From NCBI GenBank assembly GCA_028278545.1, contig JANQED010000115.1, positions 124,001-188,000 on the forward strand: 64,000 nucleotides of DNA. The letters run 5' to 3'. This DNA is from Anaerolineales bacterium (GTDB lineage Bacteria; Chloroflexota; Anaerolineae; Anaerolineales; UBA11858). The notes beneath the pieces were generated by a model. The model was not told where the DNA came from, ran no database searches, and saw only the letters and a list, made by a program, of their open reading frames with translations. Below are positions 57,914 to 58,120 of this stretch, in pieces (the first letter of the stretch is position 1; each line of letters begins with the position of its first letter). The position numbers were made by a program, and so were the translations under genes.

Positions 57914-58063
57914 GAACTTCGATCGCGGTACCTCAACCCCCGGATGGGAAGGTTTAAAAGCGAAGCCGGTGTGATTTGTAGAAACCACAAACCAAGTCCG
58001 GCGCTGTCCCGCAACTGTGTGGCCCGCAGGGCCAAGCCAGGCCGCCCGCCTCGATCGATGTTT
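57914..58063 (+). promoter_or_regulatory. Cobalamin riboswitch aptamer
   Basis: GGATGGGAAGG...AAGCCGGTG...AAGTCCGGCGCTGTCCCGCAACTGT...AAGCCAGGCCGCCCGCC (B12 box) with P1 CGATCG/CGATCG. Confidence 0.93.
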
Positions 58064-58120
58064 CCACAAGCCTCGGTGAAAGGAGGTGGAAACTCCTAAA
58101 ATCAGAAAGGAGAATGTAAG

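Follow-up and report, generated by a model that had tools for sequence, protein, structure and literature searches.

The window, that is, the whole stretch of 64 kb analysed here, comes from an uncultured Anaerolineales bacterium, whose metagenome-assembled genome of 3.95 Mb is 85% complete and has seven cobalamin switches, and carries two reductive dehalogenase genes, the second of which, rdhA2 (58121–59518, +), is directly preceded by a match to the cobalamin riboswitch family RF00174. The 465-aa product of rdhA2 is a predicted Tat-exported corrinoid/Fe-S reductive dehalogenase: it scored 254.7 bits against TIGR02486 (cut-off 160.35), also matched PF13486, has a Tat-type RRxF motif at its N-terminus and, when aligned to PceA (4uqu), keeps both Fe-S cysteine motifs and the catalytic Tyr/Asn/Arg, whose PceA counterparts we take to be Y246, N272 and R305. 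These signatures of a corrinoid-dependent enzyme (TIGR02486, PceA residues) suggest that RdhA2 uses a corrinoid, as the original prediction had it, and nothing in the sequence marks a cofactor-independent isoenzyme. Such a switch would usually point to a B12-independent isoenzyme or to a degenerate RdhA; for RdhA2 this was rejected, its catalytic residues and Fe-S motifs being intact. The next gene (59534–59812, +) encodes a small membrane protein, a probable RdhB-type anchor judged from its WYEW motif and position only; profile searches gave no family match for it.

The other dehalogenase gene, rdhA1 (52501–53904, +; TIGR02486, 301.9 bits), is a paralogue that had been predicted to have no riboswitch, and no RF00174 match accompanies it in the window; similarly, none of the rdhA1 leaders scanned contained a cobalamin switch. 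The conserved gene order comprises a two-component pair, rdhA1, rdhB1, a multihaem cytochrome gene, tatC, tatA, in some cases a cupredoxin gene, the switch, rdhA2, rdhB2 and an fmdB-like gene, with a cupredoxin/NapH-like gene farther downstream. Since both this order and the position of the switch are conserved in relatives, an assembly artefact is excluded. The two-component system (50103–52396; a histidine kinase and a NarL-like regulator) precedes rdhA1 in several Anaerolineales families and is the likely cluster regulator. The product encoded at 60334–62337, 3' of rdhA2, is a fusion of a cupredoxin domain with a NapH/NosR-like membrane ferredoxin protein and is kept in relatives. Elsewhere in the window of this Chloroflexota genome, RF01766 (cspA thermoregulator) matched at 18980–19367 with 93.8 bits; the match spans a coding region, and coding similarity may explain it.

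The aptamer (57909–58067, +) was matched by cmscan over the full RF00174 model (1–189) with 55.5 bits against a gathering cut-off of 31.5 (E 4.4e-11), and the match ends 53 nt upstream of the rdhA2 ATG, so that the predicted B12 riboswitch directly 5' of rdhA2 passed the covariance-model check proposed for it; cmscan gave no second cobalamin riboswitch in the 64 kb window. Of the span originally assigned to the riboswitch, 57914–58120, the last part, 58068–58120, belongs to the expression platform and not to the aptamer. Two of the three core motifs first named were found in their expected roles, CGCTGTCCCGCAACTGT at 58002–58018 and AAGCCAGGCCGCCCGCC at 58034–58050 (+), the latter being the B12 box/J6-3 by sequence and Rfam alignment. 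The third, GGGAAGG at 57946–57952, is part of an upstream P2-side block, CCCCCGGATGGGAAGG; the canonical GGGAA core position reads GCGAA in the Rfam alignment (57960–57964). Judged from its sequence, the element before rdhA2 is a genuine cobalamin riboswitch, and cobamide binding is predicted. An inverted repeat, GGGGA-CACA-TCCCC, lies 5' of the switch at 57862–57876, is also present in the relative G016, and may be a protein-binding site or an RNA hairpin.

The fold of the leader was supported by comparison of six orthologous rdhA2 leaders, in whose alignment 7 of 36 pairs, located in P1, P6 and the kissing loop, showed a double-sided change; the covariation score was 0.224 as against 0.015–0.072 with the partners slid. 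P1, whose 5' strand (57919–57925, +) pairs with 58052–58058, accounted for changes in three of its seven pairs. The P13/L13 hairpin (58060–58093, +), identified by leader comparison, consists of an outer stem (58060–58067/58086–58093), an inner stem (58071–58073/58081–58083) and a loop (58074–58080) that pairs with L5 of the aptamer; P5/L5 (GC-UGUCCC-GC) lies at 58003–58012 (+). The outer stem is paired in all six leaders, the terminal pair of G252 excepted; one of its pairs is either U-A or U-G. Where the window pairs C58009 with G58076, the leaders of G014, G018 and G019 have G-C, a compensatory L5/L13 change, and a further matching change was seen in the second switch of G240 (L5 GCCG with L13 CGaGC). 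Over 15 leaders, the leaders' own L5–L13 pairs beat 20,000 of 20,000 permutations (P<5e-5; P 1e-4 after de-duplication), which is to be read as support rather than as a clean probability, the loops being hand-picked and the leaders related.

The switch precedes rdhA2 in all five genus members that have this gene, the window included, at 64–95% identity; the relatives are G016 (Anaerolineales bacterium, isolate BS150m-G17; RdhA2 identity 95%) and G019, G014 and G018 (64–65%). In these four genomes, and in G252 of another family (69%), it sits directly before the rdhA2 start codon; the rdhA2 orthologues of G213 (69%) and G091 (64%) have no switch. As the genome holds only seven such switches in 3.95 Mb, and orthologues with as little as 64% protein identity still show the pairing, the association of the switch with rdhA2 goes beyond chance. 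On contig L049 of a relative, a cobalamin switch with a terminator (11727–11868, +) precedes btuF, with an rdhA1-type gene lying a few kilobases away.

Each of the six other switches in this genome stands before genes for B12 uptake, B12 synthesis or metal transport; the neighbours are btuF-, btuC-, cbiK- and nikA-like genes and others on a cobN-bearing contig. On the contig of the window, the btuF-type operon continues with cobA, cbiB and cobQ. The four of these six leaders that were inspected each show, as read from the sequence, an intrinsic-terminator-like hairpin and a U run. From these terminators and targets it follows that B12 is both made and taken up by this genome, under the customary kind of regulation in either case. 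The idea that B12-dependent enzymes generally carry switches here was rejected for the one family tested, as the mutase/B12-binding-domain proteins are encoded far from all seven switches. In the aptamer tree, the resolution of which is too poor to place the origin, the window aptamer is close to the btuF switch on the same contig. This closeness, together with the btuF cobalamin switches adjoining rdhA1 in the L049 relative, would fit a decayed or passenger switch left by a neighbouring uptake gene and having no effect on rdhA2, but such an explanation is very improbable, given that compensatory changes occur in P1, in P6 and in the kissing loop and that the element is retained directly before rdhA2 in six genomes.

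Between the aptamer and rdhA2, the Shine-Dalgarno sequence AAAGGAG (58106–58112, +) lies 8 nt before the ATG at 58121, and folding predicts an anti-Shine-Dalgarno hairpin (58094–58111, +) in which UCCU (58094–58097) pairs with AGGA (58108–58111), and which C58093–G58112 can lengthen when P13 is open. A hairpin over the Shine-Dalgarno sequence was predicted in all six leaders; in G252, AUUCUUC/GGAGAAU replaces UCCU/AGGA and likewise covers it. The anti-Shine-Dalgarno helix showed no double-sided change among the six leaders, and in three A2-type leaders without a riboswitch the Shine-Dalgarno sequence was also partly paired (0.33–0.39 unpaired, versus 0.43 in the window), so that the window is not set apart in this respect. 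No intrinsic terminator was found in 57700–58200. The switch might instead act mainly on the fate of the transcript, through Rho-dependent termination or mRNA stability within the long operon, with the whole block of rdhA2, rdhB2 and downstream genes responding; it does lie between same-strand genes of a conserved cluster, and a scan for one promoter type, sigma-70-like, gave no promoter just 5' of it. This alternative is nevertheless rather improbable, as no element for it was identified and the hairpin over the Shine-Dalgarno sequence offers a simpler route.

According to a rule derived from two corrinoid switches, compatibility of P13 with the OFF hairpin goes with repression, and mutual exclusion with activation (PMC10653944). 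In the window and the other rdhA2 leaders, P13 and the Shine-Dalgarno hairpin share at most one base, and none in G252; P13 in the rdhA2 leader is compatible with the OFF hairpin, and the exclusive arrangement was not found in the window leader. Because this is the arrangement of repressing corrinoid switches, an ordinary ligand-OFF reading follows, and translational ligand-OFF control of rdhA2 is the best reading, held with somewhat better than even confidence. That a switch before a B12-consuming enzyme needs inverted (ON) logic, one of the two options originally offered, is not supported by a platform that looks repressing.

In the mechanism proposed, the switch within the rdhA1-to-rdhA2 cluster would control the translation of rdhA2, alone of the two dehalogenases. 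Cobamide binding would lock P13 and the kissing loop; UCCU, the anti-Shine-Dalgarno strand beside P13, would then capture the Shine-Dalgarno sequence, and RdhA2 synthesis would fall. In the window and G016, the absence of ligand could let the 3' strand of P13, which resembles a Shine-Dalgarno sequence (AGGAG, 58081–58085), take the anti-Shine-Dalgarno strand CUCCU (58093–58097) and so free rdhA2. RdhA2 would then be made mainly when free cobamide is scarce, and RdhA1 independently of cobamide. Ligand-free release is plausible by energy in the window and G016, the Shine-Dalgarno mimic with the anti-Shine-Dalgarno strand giving −5.9 kcal/mol in the window versus −3.9 kcal/mol for the Shine-Dalgarno hairpin; in G014 and G019, the corresponding values were −1.0 versus −4.6 to −5.0 kcal/mol, and the release mechanism of the window is not transferable to them. 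At the same time, in nearest-neighbour folding of the platform, the Shine-Dalgarno hairpin stayed whether P13 was formed or its 5' strand was made unavailable, and RNAfold, applied to platforms and to full leaders, gave no distinction between the ligand-bound and the free state. Such modelled folding energies do not settle the sign of the rdhA2 switch.

It is physiologically odd to repress an enzyme that consumes a cofactor when this cofactor is abundant, which is a point against repression, and activation of rdhA2, in which cobamide binding raises RdhA2 synthesis and no apo-enzyme is made when the cofactor is missing, makes physiological sense. It has a precedent in an activating corrinoid riboswitch whose P13 serves as antiterminator (PMC10653944), and in the window P13 does compete with the Shine-Dalgarno hairpin for C58093, a competition that shortens the hairpin from five pairs to four. 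Activation is still unlikely, given the overlap of one base or none in the rdhA2 leaders and the single activating corrinoid member known (PMC10653944). Under the preferred ligand-OFF reading, the cell appears to set the level of the B12-consuming RdhA2 by the level of B12, most likely lowering it when B12 is plentiful.

Some 70 RdhA loci above the family cut-off were collected from 399 Anaerolineales genomes, and nearly all of these loci were scanned, a few having short upstream sequence. A switch precedes 10 of these loci, namely six rdhA2 genes, two loci in G240 and two in G131; the last four are confident pairs besides rdhA2, with scores of 36.9 to 51.3 bits. In the RdhA tree, the switch label needs at least six changes, five of them forced by well-supported branches, gain and loss not being distinguishable. 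The G171 leader was rejected as a further case (26.3 bits, below the cut-off, with a broken reading frame nearby). Twenty loci taken from a search across the phylum, most of them from Dehalococcoidia, gave no cobalamin match, and none of 30 switch loci fetched from the genomes of that search had rdhA downstream of the switch. On contig L097 of G240, two different rdhA genes each have their own cobalamin switch (3316–3454, −, and 7227–7329, +), and a third switch precedes a btuF-like lipoprotein gene. On L132 (genome G305), a cobalamin switch lies just 3' of rdhA and before a gene that resembles CbiZ, as judged by eye only.

One of the two G131 switches precedes a small rdhB-like gene followed by rdhA. 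In this leader (L135:3922–4051, −), the 4-bp P13 (UCCU/AGGA) would have its 3' strand in common with a strong terminator, and the kissing loop has only three pairs; by analogy with the activating arrangement, it is a lead, a candidate ON switch. Such P13/terminator exclusion in a related rdh leader also speaks for activation at rdhA2. That Anaerolineales repeatedly recruited cobalamin switches as cis-acting cofactor sensors for reductive dehalogenases, some of them, perhaps including that of rdhA2, being activating, is a tentative proposal with the odds well against it; if activation is true, the enzyme would be made only when its cofactor is available. As the rdhA-linked leaders include translational ones, ones with terminators and one of activating-type anatomy, the sign of control is directly testable by reporter fusions. 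Moreover, rdhA1 without and rdhA2 with a switch form a natural pair in one cluster, in which the B12 supply should shift the dehalogenase ratio.

Full-text literature searches, with subscription literature mostly outside their scope, gave no report of a cobalamin riboswitch before rdhA. The described targets of cobalamin riboswitches are synthesis, B12 transport, cobalt transport and isozymes of B12-dependent enzymes, with no cobamide-consuming enzymes (PMC3766115), and all five cobalamin switches of Dehalobacter precede corrinoid operons (PMC4285132); for tceA and an S-layer gene, upstream riboswitches have been mentioned with the class unnamed (PMC5102406). The direct targets of this well-studied class would gain a cobamide-consuming respiratory-type enzyme. 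The original premise is too strong where it keeps such switches apart from pathways that consume the cofactor: in Listeria and Enterococcus, B12-dependent pdu and eut genes are under indirect control by B12 riboswitches (PMC8079631, PMC5821096).

The Dehalococcoides "rdhA motif" resembles the rdhA2 leader as a structured RNA candidate upstream of rdhA, but it is described as a weak candidate without a ligand and belongs to another class (PMC11109978). AspocR and Rli55/EutX of Listeria and Enterococcus resemble the rdhA2 switch in that B12 sensing ends at cobamide-dependent enzymes (PMC8079631, PMC5821096); these systems, however, act via antisense or protein-sequestering RNA, whereas the rdhA2 switch would act in cis on the mRNA of the enzyme. 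With repressing RF00174 switches, the rdhA2 leader has in common the aptamer, the kissing loop, P13 and a probable OFF platform, but their targets are synthesis, uptake and B12-independent isozymes, in contrast to a predicted cobamide-dependent enzyme. Corrinoid riboswitches have been described as repressing, the one activating exception known and the first such member being that of Alkalihalobacillus halodurans cobT, which shares with the rdhA2 leader its class, kissing loop and P13 (PMC10653944). In cobT, P13 excludes the terminator, whereas in the rdhA2 leaders it is compatible with the OFF hairpin, and the G131 leader is the one closer to cobT.
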